Under the pieces are notes generated by a model. That model did not search any database. It saw only the letters and a program-made list of their open reading frames with translations, and was not told where the DNA came from. Both the position numbers and the translations under genes were made by a program. Positions 3,019 through 57,017 of a DNA stretch of 60,771 nt are shown piece after piece. Source of the DNA: Bacteroidaceae bacterium (lineage in GTDB: Bacteria; Bacteroidota; Bacteroidia; Bacteroidales; Bacteroidaceae); NCBI GenBank assembly GCA_017940605.1, contig JAGAYF010000021.1:1-60771 (forward strand), given 5' to 3'. Each line of letters opens with the position of its first letter. Positions within the stretch are counted from its first letter, which is position 1.

Positions 3019-3097
3019 AAAGGCGTAAAAGTGTGGCGAACAAGGCGTAAGCGCACGGTGGATGCGGCCTGAAAAATTTCATGCAAGGCGTAAAAAA
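3019..3097 (-). repeat. Phased intergenic array, copy 1
   Basis: Read on the minus strand this is T6-ACGCCTTG, then the marker unit ATTTTTCAGGCCGC, then TTACGCCTTG and TTTTACGCCTT. The unit starts are spaced 21, 22 and 22 bp, and the filler between cores is unrelated to that of other copies. It sits in the 383-base gap between rnr and the SUMF1-like pair. The same gap also holds the rnr terminator and the -7 box of the next gene; nothing else was seen there. Confidence 0.85.
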
Positions 3098-10528: not shown

Positions 10529-10623
10529 AAGGCCTAAAAGGTCGTTTTTTACGCCTTGTATGGATTTTTTCAGGCCGCGTGCGCAGGCCTTTCTCGCCTT
10601 GTTCGTGCTGTTATTGCGCCTTG
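10529..10623 (+). repeat. Phased intergenic array, copy 2
   Basis: The core units start at 10551 (ACGCCTTG after six T), 10572 (marker AGGCCGC), 10594 (TCGCCTTG) and 10616 (GCGCCTTG), giving spacings of 21, 22 and 22 bp. An inverted, slightly diverged unit, AAGGCCTAAAA at 10529-10539, precedes the head and can pair with it. The last unit also forms a 9-bp perfect stem (GCCTTGCCC, 10618-10626) with GGGCAAGGC at 10640-10648. The 418-base gap holding it otherwise contains only the metG promoter. Both flanking genes run on the opposite strand. Confidence 0.85.
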
Positions 10624-11136: not shown

Positions 11137-12420
11137 TTATTTCAGGTCGCGCCCAATGTCGCGCCTGTAGTATTTGTCTTGGTACTGAATGGCTTGTGCT
11201 CCCTGCATGGACAGGGCAAGTGCCTCGTCCTTGTCCTTTCCGTAGGACGTGACGCTGATGACGCGTCCGCCTGCGCTGACGAGTTGCCCGTCCTTGAGCG
11301 CCGTCCCGCTGTGGAAGACGATGCTTTCCCTGATGTCTTCCGTGCCGGTGATGGGGTAGCCTTTCTTGTATTCCTCGGGATAGCCGCCGCTGACCAACAT
11401 GACGTTGACGGCCGAGCGCGGGTCGAACTCAATGGTGCGTTGGTCCAAGTCCTGCAGGGCCACGCCTTCCAGCAAGTCCACGAGGTCGCTCTTGATGCGC
11501 GGCATGACGGTCTCGGTCTCGGGGTCGCCCATGCGGCAGTTGTACTCAATGACGTAGGGGTCGCCGCCCACATTGATAAGACCGAAGAAGATGAAGCCCT
11601 TGTACTCGATGCCCTCGCTCATCAGGCCCTGCACCGTGGGGCGGATGATGCGCTGCTCCACCTTGTCGAGCCATTCGGCCGTGGCAAAGCTGACGGGCGA
11701 CACGCTGCCCATGCCGCCTGTGTTGAGGCCGCAGTCCTGTTCGCCAATGCGCTTGTAGTCCTTGGCTTCGGGCAGGATTTTGTAGTGTCCTGCCCCGTCG
11801 GTGATGACGAATACGGAACACTCAATGCCGCTGAGGAACTGCTCAATGACGACGCTGGCCGAGGCGTTGCCGAACATGCCCTCCAGCATTTCCCTGAACT
11901 TGGCCTGTGCCTCTGCCAGGCTGTTCAGGATGAGTACCCCCTTGCCGGCGCACAGTCCGTCGGCCTTGAGTACGTAGGGCGGTTGCAGGGTTTCCAGGTA
12001 TTGCAGTCCGGCCTGGATGTTCGTCCCGTTGAATGTCTTGTGGGCCGCAGTGGGGATGCTGTGGCGTTGCATGAATTCCTTGGCAAAGTCCTTGCTTCCC
12101 TCCAGCAGTGCGCCCCGTTTGCTCGGGCCAACGACGGTGATGTCCTTCAGCTCGCCGTGTTCCTTGAAATAGTCGGCAATGCCCTCTACGAGCGGCACTT
12201 CAGGGCCTACGACGATGATATCGACTTTCTTGTCGCGGGCAAATTGGGCCACGGCAGGGAAGTTCAGCATGTCCATGGCTACCAGTTCACCCTGGGCTGC
12301 CATGCCGGGATTTCCGGGTGCGATATAGAGTTTCTCAAGTCTGGGGCTTTGGGCTATCTTCCATGCGATGGCGTGCTCGCGGCCGCCGCTGCCCAGCAAA
12401 AGGATGGTTTTCTTGTCCAT
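11137..12420 (-). CDS. purD: Phosphoribosylamine-glycine ligase (GAR synthetase)
   Basis: 427 residues, the standard length. The N-terminus [18 protein letters not shown] is the PurD N-domain, and the ATP-grasp fold follows, with [20 protein letters not shown], the [12 protein letters not shown] loop and [11 protein letters not shown] near the metal site. The enzyme catalyses the second step of de novo purine synthesis, joining 5-phosphoribosylamine and glycine with ATP. The other pur genes are not in the window. It lies in a minus-strand operon, 27 bases after the dipeptidyl peptidase gene. Confidence 0.97.
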
Positions 12421-12447
12421 TTTTCTGTATGTTTGTAGATATGAGTG

Positions 12448-14658
12448 TTATTTCAGGTGGTCTTCAAAGTAGCGCGTAATGTGTTCGTAGAGATGGACGC
12501 GGTCGCGCCCCATCATGTTGTGCCCGTCGCCCGGGTAGGTGAGCAGGTCGGGGTGTGTGCCGGCGTTTTCGCATGCGCGGATGAACGAAAGGGTGTGCTG
12601 GGGTACGCATACGGGGTCGTTGTAGCCGAAAATGATGAGCAGCCGCCCCTTGAGGTCGCCGGCGCGCAGGGTGAGGTTGTTGTTCTTGTAGCCATCGGGG
12701 TTATCCTGCGGCGTGTCCATGTACCGCTCGCCGTACATGACTTCGTAGTACTTCCAGTCTATGACAGGGCCGCCGGCTACGCCGACCTTGAAGTCATCGG
12801 CATAGGTCAGCATGAGGTTGGTCGTCATGAAGCCGCCGTAGCTCCAGCCGTGCACACCCAGCCTGCTGGCATCGACGTAGGGAAGGCTCTTGAGGAATGC
12901 CACTCCCTGCATTTGGTCTTTCATTTCTTCCGTGCCCAGCTGGCGGAACGTGACGTTCTCAAATTCCAGCCCGCGCTCGCTTGAGCCTCGGTTGTCCAAA
13001 ACGAAGACTACGTAGCCCAGCTGGGCCATGTAGGTCTCCCAGCCGCGCGACATGTAGTGCCATGAATCGTCGACCAGGCGCGTGTGCGGCCCGCCGTAGA
13101 CATAGATGATGGCTGGGTACTTCTTGTTGGGGTCGAAGTGGGTGGGCTGAATCAATCGGTAGTATAGGTCGGTTGTTCCGTCGGCGGCCTTTAGCGTTCC
13201 GCGGGTGATGTTGGGCACTTGACGCCCCTTCCAGGGGTCTTTGGCCTTCAGGAGCGTGGTTACCTTGCCGTTGTGGGTGTTGATGAGGTCAACCTGTCGT
13301 GGAACTTGGGGCGAAGACCACGTGTCGACCACCCATTTGCCGTCGGGGCTGAGCTGGCCGCTGTGAACGCCTGTGGCATTGCCCAATAGTTGGTGCGTGC
13401 CTTTTTCTATGTTTACGCTGAACAGGTTATGCTGCAATGGCGAGCAACCGGTGCAGTTGATGATGATGCTTTTGGTCTTGGTGTTGAAGCCCAACAGGTC
13501 GATGACGATGCCCAACTCGTTTCCTGTCAGGCAGCGGAGGGTACGCTCTTCCTTTAAACTGTATAGGTAGAGATGATCGTAGCCGTCCTTTTCGCTCCAA
13601 TAGATGAACTTGTCGTTGTCCCAAGGCAGGAACGTGAGTCCGTGCTGCGGCTGGACGTATTTGGGGTGTCGCTCTTCGTATAGGGTCTTTTCCAACGTGC
13701 CCGTGTTGGCATCAAACTGAAGTAGCTTGACATGGTTTTGGTCGCGGTTGAGATTGTAGAGGAATATCTTTCGGCTGTCGGGCGACCAAGTGATGCCACA
13801 ATAGTATTGGTCGAGATTGTTGCCTGTTTGAAGCCAAATGGTTTTTCCTGAGGCGCGGTGGTACACGCCCATGCTGACGCGATGGCTGGCTTCACCGGCC
13901 ATGGGATATTTGGTGGGGGCAACGGTGGCGATGCGGGTACTGATGTCGACGAGTGGATAGTCGGGGACCATGCTTTGGTCCATGCGGTAGAAGCAGAGGC
14001 TTTGTCCGTCGGGACTCCAAAACGTGCCCTTGGTGATTCCGAATTCGTTGCGGTGGACTTCCTGGCCGTATACGATGTCATGTGAGCCGTCTTGGCTCAG
14101 AGCATGCGGGCCGTTGGTGTCGTATATGTGCAGGTTGTCTTTTTCATTGTATGCCTGGCAGCGACCTGCGGGACTGTAGTCCTGCCAACTTTGTGGGGCT
14201 GGAAATCGGACGATATGGCTCACTCCTGACTGCCAATCGTATTCGGCCATCAGGCTGGCGGTGGTGAATCGTGCCTTTGGCTCGTCCGAATAGGGGAATG
14301 TGGCGACGGCGAGTGTGAGACTCTTGGATTCTTTCTTGTTGAGTCCGGCCTGTTGCAGGCTCTGCTCTAACTGTTTTTGGGTGAAGAGTGGTGTCCAGGC
14401 TGTCTTGCCGTCCCATTTGCTGATGCTGTCGCGGTCGATCTTTAGTAATTGGTTTCCCCACCAAGTTGTGCGCAATGTTTGGGGGATGAACTTTGCGTAA
14501 CTCCTGCCGCCAGGAATGAGATCTTCCAAAGTGAATGTCTTGTCCTGGGCCATGGCTGAAGTGGAAAGGTATAAAAAAATAACAAAAAGAGACCAGTTAA
14601 TTTTTCTTGCCCTGACGTGTGTTTTTTGTAAATGACTTGGATTTTTTGAAATCTCCAT
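12448..14658 (-). CDS. Dipeptidyl peptidase IV-like serine peptidase (S9)
   Basis: 736 residues from the ATG at 14658. This start precedes a basic stretch and the hydrophobic core WSLFVIFLYLSTSAMAQ, which forms the signal peptide. The seven- or eight-bladed DPPIV N-terminal propeller spans about 60-490. The alpha/beta hydrolase domain has nucleophile Ser606 in GWSYGGF, Asp681 in GYNDPV and His713 in PGDGHNM. Such enzymes release X-Pro or X-Ala dipeptides from peptide N-termini in the periplasm and feed peptide uptake. The 5' end overlaps the 3' end of the rlmL-like gene by 62 bases in another frame. It is third in the cysE operon. Confidence 0.95.
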   Translation of the reverse strand: MEISKNPSHLQKTHVRARKINWSLFVIFLYLSTSAMAQDKTFTLEDLIPGGRSYAKFIPQTLRTTWWGNQLLKIDRDSISKWDGKTAWTPLFTQKQLEQSLQQAGLNKKESKSLTLAVATFPYSDEPKARFTTASLMAEYDWQSGVSHIVRFPAPQSWQDYSPAGRCQAYNEKDNLHIYDTNGPHALSQDGSHDIVYGQEVHRNEFGITKGTFWSPDGQSLCFYRMDQSMVPDYPLVDISTRIATVAPTKYPMAGEASHRVSMGVYHRASGKTIWLQTGNNLDQYYCGITWSPDSRKIFLYNLNRDQNHVKLLQFDANTGTLEKTLYEERHPKYVQPQHGLTFLPWDNDKFIYWSEKDGYDHLYLYSLKEERTLRCLTGNELGIVIDLLGFNTKTKSIIINCTGCSPLQHNLFSVNIEKGTHQLLGNATGVHSGQLSPDGKWVVDTWSSPQVPRQVDLINTHNGKVTTLLKAKDPWKGRQVPNITRGTLKAADGTTDLYYRLIQPTHFDPNKKYPAIIYVYGGPHTRLVDDSWHYMSRGWETYMAQLGYVVFVLDNRGSSERGLEFENVTFRQLGTEEMKDQMQGVAFLKSLPYVDASRLGVHGWSYGGFMTTNLMLTYADDFKVGVAGGPVIDWKYYEVMYGERYMDTPQDNPDGYKNNNLTLRAGDLKGRLLIIFGYNDPVCVPQHTLSFIRACENAGTHPDLLTYPGDGHNMMGRDRVHLYEHITRYFEDHLK

Positions 14659-16159
14659 TTCTGCTTTTCTTGTCAAAAAATTTTTTGTTCTTGGGGGGAC
14701 GTCGGTCGTCATCCTCCTTGTCAAAATACCGTGGACGCCTGGGCTTTTCAAACGGCCGATCGTAGCCTTTCCAATCGGAAGAACGTCGATTGTTGCGTTC
14801 TTCGCGTTCTGCGTTTTTTTCGGCCCACATGGCTCGACGGATTTCCCTTTTTTCCTTTGCTACGAATTCGCGGTGTCGGCGTATCAGATATTCGGGAATC
14901 TCGCTGTCGGTGTCTTCAGTGACTGCATCCCGTTGAAATTCGCGGCGGGGCTTGATGCGGCGTTTCTCTGCGTTTCGTGCTCGCTCCTCATTGGTCTTTA
15001 CGATGCCGCCTCGGGCGCGGAAATCCTGGAGCTGTCCGTTGAAAATGGTGTATTTGCGGAATTCGCAATTGAGCGATCCATTATATAATGGTATCTTTAG
15101 GCTGGGCTTTAGACCTATTTGGTCAAAAGTCTCCATGCGGTAGCCGATTATCCATGCGTCGTTTCCTGCAAATTGGTGTTTGAGCCGTTCCCCAATGGTT
15201 TTGTATAGTCCTAACAAGTTAGATGTGGTGATGCGCTCACCGTAGGGAGGATTCATTACAATGATGGACTTCTCCGTGGGTTGGGTGAATTGCTGGATGG
15301 GTTGCACGGCCAGTGAAATGTTGCTGCTTAGGCCTGCTGCCTTGACGTTCTGGCGTGCGGAGATGATGGCTTCGCTTTCGCTGTCGTATCCATAGATGTG
15401 GTGTTCAAACGGTCGCTCCTTGCTGTCATCGTTGTAGATTTTTTCAAATAGGCTGCGGTCAAAATCCGGCCATTTTTCAAAGGCATAGTTTTGGCGAAAT
15501 ACGCCAGGGGCGATGTTGCGGGCAATTAATGCGGCTTCTATCAGGATCGTACCTGAGCCGCACATGGGATCGATGAAGTCGCACTCACCTTTCCAGCCCG
15601 TCATGAGTATCATGGCGGCGGCCAGGACTTCATTGATAGGGCTCTCCACGGTTGCCTGCCGATAGCCGCGCTTATGCAGGCTCTCTCCCGAGGAATCCAG
15701 GCTGAGGGTGCAGTTGTCCTCCGAGATGTGCATGTTAAAGCGTATGTCAGGGGCGGCTACGCTGATGTTGGGCCGTTGTCCTGTTTGCTCGCGGAAGAAA
15801 TCGACAATGGCATCCTTGACTTTGTATGACACGAATTTGGAATTTCGGAAGTCATCGCTATATACGACCGAGTCGACCGAAAAAGTGGTCTTGACATCCA
15901 AATATTGCGTCCAGTCCAATTGCTTTATTTTCTCATATACCTCATCGGCGGTCGTCGCCTTAAAGGTAATGATGGGCTTGAGGATGCGAATGGCCGTGCG
16001 TAGCTCAAAATTGGTACGGTACATCAACTCTTTGTCTCCGGTAAAGAAGACGATGCGGTTGCCTTTCTTTATATTTTCAGCGCCAATCTGAGCAAGTTCC
16101 TTGGCCAGGATGTCTTCCAGTCCCAGAAAGGTCTTGGCGGCGAGTTTAGTGGATTCCAT
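14597..16159 (-). CDS. RlmL/COG0116-type 23S rRNA (guanine-N2) methyltransferase
   Basis: 520 residues. The N-terminal THUMP domain (about 45-155) is followed by a Rossmann methyltransferase domain with the SAM-binding DPMCGSGTILIEAA motif and the catalytic MNPPYGER motif. This corresponds to the m2G2445 half of E. coli RlmL, without the second (RlmK) methyltransferase domain. The last 130 residues or so are a strongly basic, low-complexity tail rich in Arg, Lys and Asp, probably RNA-binding. The tail's coding end overlaps the start of the next gene by 62 bases. It starts one base after the cysE stop codon, so the two are probably translationally linked. Confidence 0.9.
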   Translation of the reverse strand: MESTKLAAKTFLGLEDILAKELAQIGAENIKKGNRIVFFTGDKELMYRTNFELRTAIRILKPIITFKATTADEVYEKIKQLDWTQYLDVKTTFSVDSVVYSDDFRNSKFVSYKVKDAIVDFFREQTGQRPNISVAAPDIRFNMHISEDNCTLSLDSSGESLHKRGYRQATVESPINEVLAAAMILMTGWKGECDFIDPMCGSGTILIEAALIARNIAPGVFRQNYAFEKWPDFDRSLFEKIYNDDSKERPFEHHIYGYDSESEAIISARQNVKAAGLSSNISLAVQPIQQFTQPTEKSIIVMNPPYGERITTSNLLGLYKTIGERLKHQFAGNDAWIIGYRMETFDQIGLKPSLKIPLYNGSLNCEFRKYTIFNGQLQDFRARGGIVKTNEERARNAEKRRIKPRREFQRDAVTEDTDSEIPEYLIRRHREFVAKEKREIRRAMWAEKNAEREERNNRRSSDWKGYDRPFEKPRRPRYFDKEDDDRRPPKNKKFFDKKSRNGDFKKSKSFTKNTRQGKKN

Positions 16160-20175: not shown

Positions 20176-20254
20176 TTTTTTACGCCTTGTTGACGGGGCT
20201 TTTACGCCTTGCCGGAAATTTTTCAGGCCGCATTGGCCAGCTTTTTGCGCCTTG
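20176..20254 (+). repeat. Phased intergenic array, copy 3
   Basis: The unit starts are 20182 (ACGCCTTG), 20204 (ACGCCTTG), 20225 (marker AGGCCGC) and 20247 (GCGCCTTG), giving spacings of 22, 21 and 22 bp. Each unit is preceded by four to six T. It is the cleanest copy. It lies in the 440-base gap between ribD and the MG2-like gene, both on the opposite strand. The rest of that gap contains only the -7 box at 19946 and no recognisable gene. Confidence 0.88.
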
Positions 20255-24804: not shown

Positions 24805-24905
24805 CAGGGCGCAAAAGCGGTACGAATGCGGCCTGAAAATTTCAGGACAAGGCGTAAAAGTTCTGCCGGCAAGGCGTAAGAAATGGACGGACAAGGCGTA
24901 AAAAA
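24805..24905 (-). repeat. Phased intergenic array, copy 4 (five units)
   Basis: Read on the minus strand, the units begin at 24899, 24877 and 24855 (each ACGCCTTG), 24834 (marker AGGCCGC) and 24812 (GCGCCCTG), giving spacings of 22, 22, 21 and 22 bp. This copy has three units before the marker, where others have one or two. It lies in the 439-base gap before the GH27 gene, on the strand opposite to both neighbours. The gap otherwise contains only the GH27 promoter. Confidence 0.88.
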
Positions 24906-29160: not shown

Positions 29161-29220
29161 GCGGCCGTTCTACGCCTGCAGCCCGACAGTGAGGCCGATA
29201 ATCAGGACATTCCGAAAGCG

Positions 29221-29317
29221 CAAGGCGTAAAAAGTGGGCCAACAGGGCGTGAAAGCGATGCCAACGAGGCCTGAAAAATTTCACGCAAGGCGTAAAAAAT
29301 CATTTTTACGCCTTGCG
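29221..29317 (-). repeat. Phased intergenic array, copy 5, with a palindromic head
   Basis: On the minus strand the units start at 29293 (ACGCCTTG), 29272 (marker AGGCCTC), 29250 (ACGCCCTG) and 29228 (ACGCCTTG), giving spacings of 21, 22 and 22 bp. Directly beyond the head unit the same core recurs in inverted orientation at 29308-29315, so the end of the array is a perfect palindrome. It lies in the 314-base gap before the Wzi-like gene. Besides the terminator and that gene's -7 box nothing else is seen there. Confidence 0.87.
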
Positions 29318-31559: not shown

Positions 31560-33620
31560 TCAGCGCACGGGGAAAGCCGCGATGCGGAGCGTGGTGCAGC
31601 CGTAGGGAATGAGTTCTATGGGCTCACCCTCATCCTGTCGGGCACGTTCCTGATTATAATAGGCGATAGGTCCTGTGCTTCCGTTGTACATGTGCCATTC
31701 GGGCAGGCGCAGGCCGCGCGTTCGCAAGGTAATGGGGGCATTATCTACGTTCCAAGGATATTCTTGCGTGGTATGCTTCACTACTTCAAAGTCCTTCTGG
31801 ATGCTTTCGGCCTGGCGCAACACGTCTTTCTTGAGTGCGTAGTTCCATGGCGACTCAGTGGTCACCTCCCAGTACTTTTTTCCGTAGGCAATGTGCTCCG
31901 ATTCCTTGAAATCATGCTGTTTCCAAGTTTCTTGCAGCTTTAGGGCGTAGACTAATGGGCCGCGCTCGATGGCTGCACTGCCGCCGTACCAATAGCTTAC
32001 CTGTACGTCGGCGGGAAACTCTACTGTGAGAACATCGCCCGCTTTCCAGGTCCGTTCTATTGTGGCCAATGTTCCGGCTTTGGCTCCTACGCTGAGCATT
32101 TGCCCGTTCAGTGTGATTTTTGCGTGCTTGCACCAGCCTGGAATGCGGCAGCGGAAAGGGAATGTCAACTCTTTTTGCTTTTTGTCCTCAAAGGAAAAAT
32201 GGAAAGTCACGGTTTCGTCAAACGGATAAGCCGTTTCTTCCTGTATGCACACCCTTTTGCCTCCTGCAACGGCCGTACTTACGCTGGATGGAGCGTAGGC
32301 CACTGCTGCCAATCCCTCATCTGGCGTGGCGTACCAAAGGTGCTGCGTCAATTTGGGCCATCCCTGATGCATGTTGCTGGTGCAGCAGGCATATCCGTTG
32401 AGTACGCCGAACAGGATGTCGGTGTCGGTGTGGGGAGTGGAGAATTGGCGCACGGCGCGGGTGCATGCCACCTGGTTTACTTGCTGGTAGTACTGGCGCG
32501 CCGTGTAGTCGTCGTTGGCTTGCGTGGGCAGCGCGTTATATGCCACGCGTTCCAAGTGGTCGGCCCAGCGCATGTCGCCTGTTATCTCAGTTATGGCCTC
32601 CAATGAGTACATCATTTCCACGGCGGTACAAAGTTCGGAACCGCAGGTCGGGTCTCCGAAACGCAGCCGCTCGTCGCCGCCCCACAGTCCCGTGGGCAAG
32701 CCGATGGTGTTCCTCATGTCTTTCACCGCTTTGTCCAATGCGCGTATGTGTTGGGCGTCTTTGTCGTACTGGTAGTAGACTGCGGGCTCTTTGAATCCTT
32801 GTCCCAAGTTGACGCAGTGCAGACTGTGCTGGCGGCTCAGGTGATCGCCGTGCAGGAACACGCCTGTCCAGTCGTGGGTTTGCTTGTGAATGAGTTCGCC
32901 GAGGTTCAAAAGGAATTTTTCGCCCGTTATGTTGTACAGCCAGTACACCATCATGAGGTTGTCGCCGCCGCGGCGTTCACCCCAAAAGGTCCAATGCCCC
33001 AGGTTGTGCTTGGGAAGCTCACGCAGTTGGTATTGGAAATAGCGGGTCATGAAGGGAATGACGCGCTCATCGCCTGTGGCGGTATAGTACTGCTGCATGA
33101 TTTTCAGAACCACCATCTTGGGCCACCAATCCTGCGCGTTGTTGCGCTGCAGTCCTGGTTCGTTGGGGCGGTCCTCCGATGGGCCGAAGTACCCATCCTC
33201 TCTCTGCGAGGCCAATGCCCATTCTATCCATGGCTGCACCTTTTCCTTCAGTTGTGCGTCGTTGAGAATGTAGGCTAAGGGTAGCAATCCGTCAATCCAG
33301 TACGGTCCGCGTTCCCACACGTCGCCATCGCCGCCCAGCCAACCGTTGCGCGGGCCCATTACCTGGGGGTATATTTCATCGAGATGCCCCGTCAGGCCGT
33401 CCCGCATGCGTTCCAATTGCTGCTTGAGCCAGCCATCGGCCCTTACTTCGCCCAAATTGAGCTCCAGCAAAGGCTTTTGCAGGAGCGGAGCTTTGTTCTG
33501 CCGGTGTTCCGACGAGGGTAAAATGGGTTTGTGGGCAGCTTGCTTGCCTCGTGCCGAGAGGGTGGCGAACCCACACCATGCGGCCACAAAAAATAAGAGC
33601 ACATTTCGTAAAGTATTCAT
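31560..33620 (-). CDS. GH127-family beta-L-arabinofuranosidase-like enzyme
   Basis: 686 residues with a signal peptide (about 1-24). An alpha/alpha barrel (about 60-460) is followed by beta-sandwich domains. The zinc-thiolate active site known from the Bifidobacterium enzyme HypBA1 is complete: Glu329 and Cys331 in CGSELCTAVEMM, and Cys412-Cys413 in GYACCTSNMHQGWPK, with Cys413 corresponding to the zinc-bound/nucleophile position. GH127 members remove beta-L-arabinofuranose from plant glycoproteins or related glycans by a cysteine-based retaining mechanism. The exact substrate here is inference. It is divergent from the C10 peptidase gene, with a promoter for each. Confidence 0.93.
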   Translation of the reverse strand: MNTLRNVLLFFVAAWCGFATLSARGKQAAHKPILPSSEHRQNKAPLLQKPLLELNLGEVRADGWLKQQLERMRDGLTGHLDEIYPQVMGPRNGWLGGDGDVWERGPYWIDGLLPLAYILNDAQLKEKVQPWIEWALASQREDGYFGPSEDRPNEPGLQRNNAQDWWPKMVVLKIMQQYYTATGDERVIPFMTRYFQYQLRELPKHNLGHWTFWGERRGGDNLMMVYWLYNITGEKFLLNLGELIHKQTHDWTGVFLHGDHLSRQHSLHCVNLGQGFKEPAVYYQYDKDAQHIRALDKAVKDMRNTIGLPTGLWGGDERLRFGDPTCGSELCTAVEMMYSLEAITEITGDMRWADHLERVAYNALPTQANDDYTARQYYQQVNQVACTRAVRQFSTPHTDTDILFGVLNGYACCTSNMHQGWPKLTQHLWYATPDEGLAAVAYAPSSVSTAVAGGKRVCIQEETAYPFDETVTFHFSFEDKKQKELTFPFRCRIPGWCKHAKITLNGQMLSVGAKAGTLATIERTWKAGDVLTVEFPADVQVSYWYGGSAAIERGPLVYALKLQETWKQHDFKESEHIAYGKKYWEVTTESPWNYALKKDVLRQAESIQKDFEVVKHTTQEYPWNVDNAPITLRTRGLRLPEWHMYNGSTGPIAYYNQERARQDEGEPIELIPYGCTTLRIAAFPVR

Positions 33621-35551: not shown

Positions 35552-35664
35552 GGCCTAAAACGACGTTTTTACGCCTTGTTTGAGGCACTTTTACGCCCCG
35601 GCTGAAATTTTTCAGGCCGCAGGGGCGGGTGTTTTACGCCTCGTCCGCAGGCGTTTGCGCCCGA
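35552..35664 (+). repeat. Phased intergenic array, copy 6 (five units)
   Basis: The unit starts are 35571 (ACGCCTTG), 35593 (ACGCCCCG), 35614 (marker AGGCCGC), 35636 (ACGCCTCG) and 35657 (GCGCCCGA), giving spacings of 22, 21, 22 and 21 bp. As in copy 2, a diverged inverted unit (GGCCTAAAA, 35552-35560) precedes the head. It fills most of the 294-base gap between the convergent C10 peptidase and glycosidase-like genes. Confidence 0.85.
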
Positions 35665-48292: not shown

Positions 48293-48371
48293 TTTTTTAC
48301 GCCTTGTCGATGGAATTATTACGCCTTTCCCTGTGTTTTTCAGACCGTGTTCGACGGCCTTTTGCGCCTTG
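48293..48371 (+). repeat. Phased intergenic array, copy 7
   Basis: The unit starts are 48299 (ACGCCTTG), 48321 (ACGCCTTT), 48342 (diverged marker AGACCGT) and 48364 (GCGCCTTG), giving spacings of 22, 21 and 22 bp. It lies in the 542-base gap between ftsX and pepO, on the strand opposite to both. The rest of the gap holds the ftsX promoter and the hairpin at 48592; 48376-48590 shows nothing recognisable. Confidence 0.85.
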
Positions 48372-56885: not shown

Positions 56886-56917
56886 TCTCCTGGCCCGCCC
56901 TTGGGCCGTGTGCGCCG

Positions 56918-57017
56918 TTTCTTACGCCCTGTTCGGGATGCTTTTGCGCCTTGCCCGGGATTTTTCCTGCCCCGTCCGCAGTGCTTTTGCGCCCTGTCCT
57001 GCGTCGTTTGCCCCGCG
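56918..57017 (+). repeat. Phased intergenic array, copy 8 (most diverged)
   Basis: The unit starts are 56924 (ACGCCCTG), 56946 (GCGCCTTG), 56967 (diverged marker, CTGCCCC after TTTTTC), 56989 (GCGCCCTG) and 57010 (GCCCCGCG), giving spacings of 22, 21, 22 and 21 bp. The cores have drifted but the spacing is intact. It begins 33 bases after hairpin-rich repeat unit B. Confidence 0.75.

Follow-up and report, generated by a model that had tools for sequence, protein, structure and literature searches.

Plasmid-origin iterons and the ends of Tn7 and Mu carry several direct ~22-bp sites that are bound on one helix face; a replicon has a few of them, next to its rep or transposase gene. The arrays described here resemble them in their direct ~22-bp sites but are dispersed over the chromosome. 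Of the known repeats compared, the nearest in kind is BrickBuilt, a MITE of Porphyromonas gingivalis with a 23-nt tandem repeat and 19 copies in one strain (PMC4596501). Both repeats are found in Bacteroidales, are intergenic and dispersed, and consist of tandem units with conserved and variable halves. They differ in unit length (23 versus 21/22 bp), and BrickBuilt copies are far fewer; BrickBuilt also has a leader, a tail and terminal inverted repeats, none of which we found in our arrays. REP/BIME elements share high copy number, intergenic location and lineage-specific sequences with our arrays, and are known to bind protein (PMC2817692). A REP is palindromic, starts from a GTAG-like head and goes with a Y1 transposase, whereas our unit is directional and the transposase profile PF01797 was not found in its genome. 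Direct repeats of TAACTGA, present in Beggiatoaceae, Cyanobacteria and five Bacteroidetes, also form many intergenic sets (169 sets of 2-6 copies); they differ in being heptamers, mostly a few nt from start codons, with a proposed RNA action (PMC4679880).

We analysed a 60,771-nt stretch of DNA (the window), which is a contig of a 2,014,376-bp MAG (G000; 66 contigs, 73% complete). For RNase R, the closest named relative among the matches listed, at 77% identity, was RUG11179, the MAG of an uncultured Bacteroidales bacterium. The first-pass annotation had reported eight copies of one array design. All eight are present in the sequence; the units do not all share one core, and most arrays contain a distinct special unit (GAAATTTTTCAGGCCGC) reached by a 21-bp step. 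Four units each make up array 1 (3019..3097, reverse strand; special unit 3064-3080), array 2 (10547..10623, forward; special unit 10562-10578 with 2 mismatches), array 3, the copy given here (20176..20254, forward; special unit 20215-20231), and array 7 (48293..48371, forward), in which the special unit has diverged and is not among the six window matches to GAAATTTTTCAGGCCGC. Array 2 had been drawn from 10529; its end stands, and its chain begins at 10547. Array 4 (24805..24905, reverse) has five units, with the special unit at 24828-24844 (3 mismatches). Array 5 (29177..29317, reverse) chains five units over 29177-29297, of which the outermost has decayed, and has its special unit at 29266-29282. 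Array 6 (35552..35664, forward) has five units from 35567 and a special unit at 35604-35620; the earlier start at 35552 takes in an upstream inverted half site. Array 8 (56899..57017, forward) has six chained units, several of them decayed, and had been started at 56918. The window also encodes a beta-L-arabinofuranosidase domain protein (31560-33620, reverse strand), which shares 64% identity with a counterpart from a 169-kb Parabacteroides distasonis plasmid record.

The scan suggested in the first-pass annotation placed the pattern far above chance frequency across G000. We observed nine window matches to the two-unit pattern TTTTRCGCCYTG-N10-TTTTRCGCC (≤3 mismatches) compared to a mean of 0.02 in shuffles, and six matches to the special unit (≤3 mismatches) compared to 0.25. 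Over the whole genome, the two-unit pattern gave 198 matches and the special unit 131, against 4 and 2 for reversed-pattern controls. Chains of at least three units formed 78 arrays in the 780,630 bp analysed first (the window plus nine further contigs or parts), whereas Markov-2 controls gave 1, 1 and 2. These 78 arrays served to train a position weight matrix, with which we scanned 1,117,059 bp of G000; 115 arrays scored at least 25 (one per 9.7 kb), and one shuffled copy gave 0.

We found no match to an already described family in Rfam (searched with the window), in plasmid and phage records (searched with array 3) or in viral contigs (searched for the exact pattern). The exact pattern was also absent from one genome per species across 84,980 species, a set that G000 itself may fall outside. 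With ≤2 mismatches, it was absent from 59 of 60 relatives, including all 18 congeners listed; the sole exception, G042, had two matches, and the reversed-pattern control gave single matches in three of the 60 genomes. A literature search, mostly without subscription journals, returned no recognisable description of the repeat or of a comparable genus-wide class.

The repeat unit is TTTTRCGCCYTGTTGG-N6, with core positions 6-8 at 99% identity (160 units). The filler, earlier called not conserved, was near-random overall; it was nonetheless weakly conserved: of 160 units, 84% have T at position 12 and 76% have G at position 15. The 21/22-bp spacing was borne out by 160 steps of 22 bp and 87 of 21 bp, with 10 others, as was the count of four or five cores per array (106 of 115 arrays). 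Exactly one 21-bp step occurred in 62 of 78 arrays, two in 11, three in 1 and none in 4. An AAAT-like lead marked 62 of the 87 units after a 21-bp step compared to 8 of the 160 after a 22-bp step. At ≤1 mismatch, 22 of 78 arrays had an inverted half site, GGCGYAA or GGCGTGA, immediately upstream, compared to 6 with one further upstream and 0 with one downstream (50, 24 and 19 at ≤2 mismatches). Beyond about −15 and +27 bp, only isolated flanking columns rose above background, and we found no distant conserved ends in G000 (78 arrays; an alignment of 60 agrees). Fillers were no more alike within arrays (4.20 of 10 matches) than between them (4.11 of 10), so the units do not come from recent local duplication and we rejected local tandem amplification. 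Identical fillers in different arrays (7 pairs versus 1.2 in column shuffles) were in small excess, a hint of some recent copying. On one contig, C22 (169 kb; L197-L201, L272-L275), the mean array score was 49, compared to 66-88 on other contigs; either its arrays have decayed or the contig has another history.

As the first-pass annotation stated, the arrays lie between genes. None of the 78 arrays in the first 780 kb of G000 overlapped a gene called by our own codon-usage script, which is not a published caller. We searched between arrays and start codons for TAnnTTTG, which we take to be the Bacteroidota −7 promoter element. It was present on 87 of 99 start sides, compared to 14 of 99 for the reverse-strand control and 2 of 105 stop sides. 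Thus, G000 arrays clearly sit outside promoters. A terminator-like hairpin (dG ≤ −12) separated the array from the stop codon in 52 of 115 cases, compared to 10 of 99 start sides read backwards, 32 of 99 read forwards and 53 of 144 array-less stop codons; at dG −8 the respective counts were 61, 24, 59 and 82. Because hairpins are also frequent on forward start sides and at array-less stops, the arrays only probably sit beyond terminators. In two congeners the promoter motif again lay between array and gene (10 of 11 in G008, 17 of 17 in G011; 1 and 1 on the reverse strand). Matches to the first motif fell inside called genes in 8 of 52 cases in G011 and 1 of 48 in G008; these were left out of later counts, and we make no claim that congener arrays are never in genes.

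We then considered the spacing of arrays along the chromosome. The shortest of 68 intervals in the first 780 kb of G000 was 3,920 bp. Permutations that chose at random among intergenic regions, weighted by class, expected 8.1-19.6 of the 68 intervals to be <3.8 kb, depending on the region length required, and fewer than 2 came out in none of 5,000 runs. For larger regions, the intervals had a coefficient of variation that by itself was not unusual (p 0.03 to 0.68); what we see is therefore an exclusion zone and not general evenness. Contigs fetched later repeated the exclusion at score 25 (28 intervals, minimum 4,217 bp); at score 20, 1 of 29 intervals was 1,043 bp. Across all G000 contigs sampled, intervals <3.9 kb numbered 0 of 96 at score 30, 2 of 99 at 25, 4 of 103 at 20 and 7 of 105 at 18, and shuffled sequence gave 0, 5 and 10 matches at scores 25, 20 and 18. 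Weaker arrays break the 3.9-kb minimum in G000 too, a point against anchoring. Among intergenic regions of at least 200 bp, arrays occupied 2 of the 41 that had another array within 3.9 kb and 40 of the 54 at 3.9-6 kb from one. Holding the array accounts for part of the greater length of array regions, but the array-to-array distance is independent of it. The exclusion was absent in G008 (7 intervals <3.9 kb versus 5.7 expected) and partial in G011 (4 versus 9.1 expected, p 0.002; 4 versus 5.9, p 0.052, with only regions of at least 200 bp eligible), which counts against a role as anchors.

Topological domains in E. coli and Salmonella are reported to measure roughly 10 kbp, with a range of 2-66 kbp (PMC3820752). 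Three observations lead us to favour boundary anchoring: the arrays stay out of genes and promoters, they are metered in G000, and their mean distance matches these ~10-kbp domains. Our reading, tentative and at slightly under an even chance, is that each array is a docking platform for a putative sequence-specific DNA-binding protein and a predicted chromosome boundary anchor. The putative protein would bind cooperatively at several sites on one helix face, bound arrays would pin, bridge or insulate DNA, and the specificity of the protein would have changed between clades. The chromosome would thereby be split into ~10-kb units. The helically phased protein-binding array proposed in the first-pass annotation fits the kept 21/22-bp steps, the constrained core amid varying filler and flanks, and the non-promoter placement.

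The family with its own sequence was private to G000 among the genomes searched, and the same design with other cores recurred in congeners, which makes the class wider than first described. Intergenic self-similarity peaked at 21 or 22 bp in several congeners. Core-blind detection of three units found 41 of 437 intergenic regions in 15 congeners, compared to 6, 1 and 1 when three control spacings were used; we excluded 5 of these 41 regions (7-bp simple repeats and similar). No arrays were seen in the little sequence sampled from G018, G017, G002 and G001. G008 carries the core word TCCGACCTTGTTTAAACT (24 loci across 290 kb), G011 and G015 share GAAACGCCGTTTC (22 loci across 135 kb of G011), G007 and G016 share TCTAATCGCGCCGAAA, G004 has GCAGGCCTGC and TTCACCGATG, and G012 has ATCTCGGCGGAGATA. 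A second G007 motif drifted to A/T-rich sequence and was dropped. Whole-genome counts of the G008 word were 156 in G008 and ≤1 in each of 18 other genomes, and those of the G011 pattern were 242 in G011, 273 in G015 and none in 17 others. Array core words are clade-specific. Units in G011 are palindromic, unlike the directional G000 unit. A wider scan of other Bacteroidota (78 loci) picked out 10 of their 287 intergenic regions versus 4, 3 and 3 at control spacings, a weak signal on which we base no claim. One congener contig (L211, contig C5 of G007) carries many intergenic 7-bp tandem repeats (GTTTACG and TATAACC, for example) at 12316-14700, unlike the 21-bp arrays.

Array positions were not shared with distant congeners. 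Gene ends that face a congener array faced one in G000 in 12 of 46 cases, compared to 32 of 146 without, and we rejected shared positions; such turnover is odd for essential anchors. In five congeners (L064, L068, L071, L073, L077), the metG match had one stop codon within the matched stretch, maybe the terminal stop. We also inspected six matched regions of the sister pair G011/G015. The array was kept in both genomes at L316 and L250 and was present in both at L315, where the region aligned poorly; at L304 the opposite side held a G011 array of a different word, and at L302 and L319 there was no array in the G011 stretch compared. The dyad of the L250/L327 array was kept by matching changes on both arms (GTCTC..GAGAC versus GTTTC..GAAAC), a point for the docking reading. 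Separately, more than 300 bp of intergenic sequence including the array was nearly identical between L316 (560-960) and G011 contig C15 near 128,300 (also L341), with flanks at 90-94%; this may reflect strong conservation, recent transfer or mixed binning.

The arrays could instead be MITE-like non-autonomous elements, a serious possibility that we nevertheless place clearly below even. Their phased sites would then bind the recombinase that mobilises them. Insertion immunity around an existing copy would account for the 3.9-kb gap, and selection would tolerate copies only between genes. Position turnover between G000 and distant congeners agrees with such elements. In G011, moreover, arrays lie within a fixed-length dispersed element (L326-L355, L212-L215) bounded by direct repeats of the 13-mer AAAAATTTTGACA, which also speaks against anchors. 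Of 29 aligned copies, 19 had the 13-mer (≤3 mismatches) at either end, at a distance of 163 bp in 18 copies and of 162 bp in the other; the aligned copies were a chosen set (11 of 22 loci of one contig plus 18 of the 30 loci fetched). The 17 G008 loci that we aligned, out of 24, shared a conserved block of ~190 bp. Three comparisons at two syntenic array sites gave G000 regions of 457 bp versus 81 and 127 bp in congeners, and 269 versus 10 bp, so arrays come and go with short inserts. Insertion immunity explains the exclusion zone as well as anchoring does, yet G008 has copies and no exclusion. G000 arrays are without conserved ends, and their constrained core and near-random filler are not expected from neutral decay of old copies. 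PF01797 was not found in G000, G008, G005 or G004 (it was present in 4 of 19 genus genomes, G012, G018, G010 and G003), and the TnsB/MuA-type transposase profile PF09299 was not found in G000 (present in 1 of 19, G003); G000 is 73% complete, and PF09299 was also silent in 14 control genomes. We rejected REP/RAYT, given that PF01797 was not found in G000 and that the unit is directional and folds no better than shuffles in seven of eight window arrays, as well as Tn7/Mu ends, given that PF09299 was not found in G000, for which the control genomes gave no positive control. Overall, the arrays have probably spread as small dispersed elements, and they are either elements that also serve as anchors or elements alone.

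It is improbable, in our view, that the arrays are preferred DNA gyrase sites that, like BIME-2, would drain positive supercoils at the ends of transcription units. Among intergenic regions of at least 100 bp, arrays occupied 18 of 41 convergent, 50 of 144 co-directional and 9 of 66 divergent regions (one array was unclassified), and both the enrichment between convergent genes and the rarity between divergent ones agree with gyrase. So does the GC/AT alternation near the helical repeat in G000, where the 10.75-bp harmonic was strongest (5.5-fold over shuffled, compared to 3.9-fold for the 21.5-bp term). In 36 congener arrays, however, the 21.5-bp term led (5.5), and the 10.75-bp term (2.5) was no higher than the 7.17-bp term (2.8). 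Clade-specific cores are also unexpected for a conserved enzyme. With the helical harmonic leading in G000 only, we also rejected intrinsic curvature as a class-wide property, the part of the first-pass proposal that did not stand.

That the arrays are operators through which a global transcription regulator would act on adjoining promoters is least probable of all, for although they lie upstream of promoter-like motifs and their phasing is operator-like, 18 of the 77 arrays classified are in convergent regions, where no start codon faces them, divergent regions are the least occupied, orientation in co-directional regions is even (25 and 25), and a 3.9-kb minimum spacing is unexpected for a regulon.

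Seven of the eight window arrays folded no better than shuffles (z −1.6 to 1.1), and two folded on the other strand gave z −0.3 and −2.4. Array 5 (z −4.8), with an inverted unit just past 29297, was the only window array with strong predicted hairpin folding. Given this ordinary folding and the lack of an Rfam match in the window, we rejected RNA structure. The first-pass annotation had also raised orientation relative to replication. We observed no such polarity across 112 arrays (r = −0.08 with GC skew; skew sign agreed in 43%), which led us to reject a replication-polar signal of the KOPS or Chi type. We found no link between the orientations of neighbouring G000 arrays.

Returning to boundary anchoring, we consider it rather unlikely, though conceivable from the sequences compared, that the genus as a whole partitions its chromosome in this way. 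Phased docking arrays would lie between transcription units, 6-12 kb apart in the three best-measured genomes, and would be read by a fast-evolving specificity factor with core words of each clade's own; in one species they would be metered, with no two strong anchors within 3.9 kb. Dispersed intergenic repeats are usually taken for debris or hairpins. The G000 repeat is instead metered (none <3.9 kb apart at the strict score), sits outside promoters, and is replaced in relatives by equally phased, differently worded repeats. If a protein reads the arrays, the genus would offer a natural series for the turnover of global DNA-binding specificity and a genetic route to the determinants of topological domain size in bacteria. 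If the partition reading is true, the arrays would constitute a bacterial insulator system with clade-private addresses.
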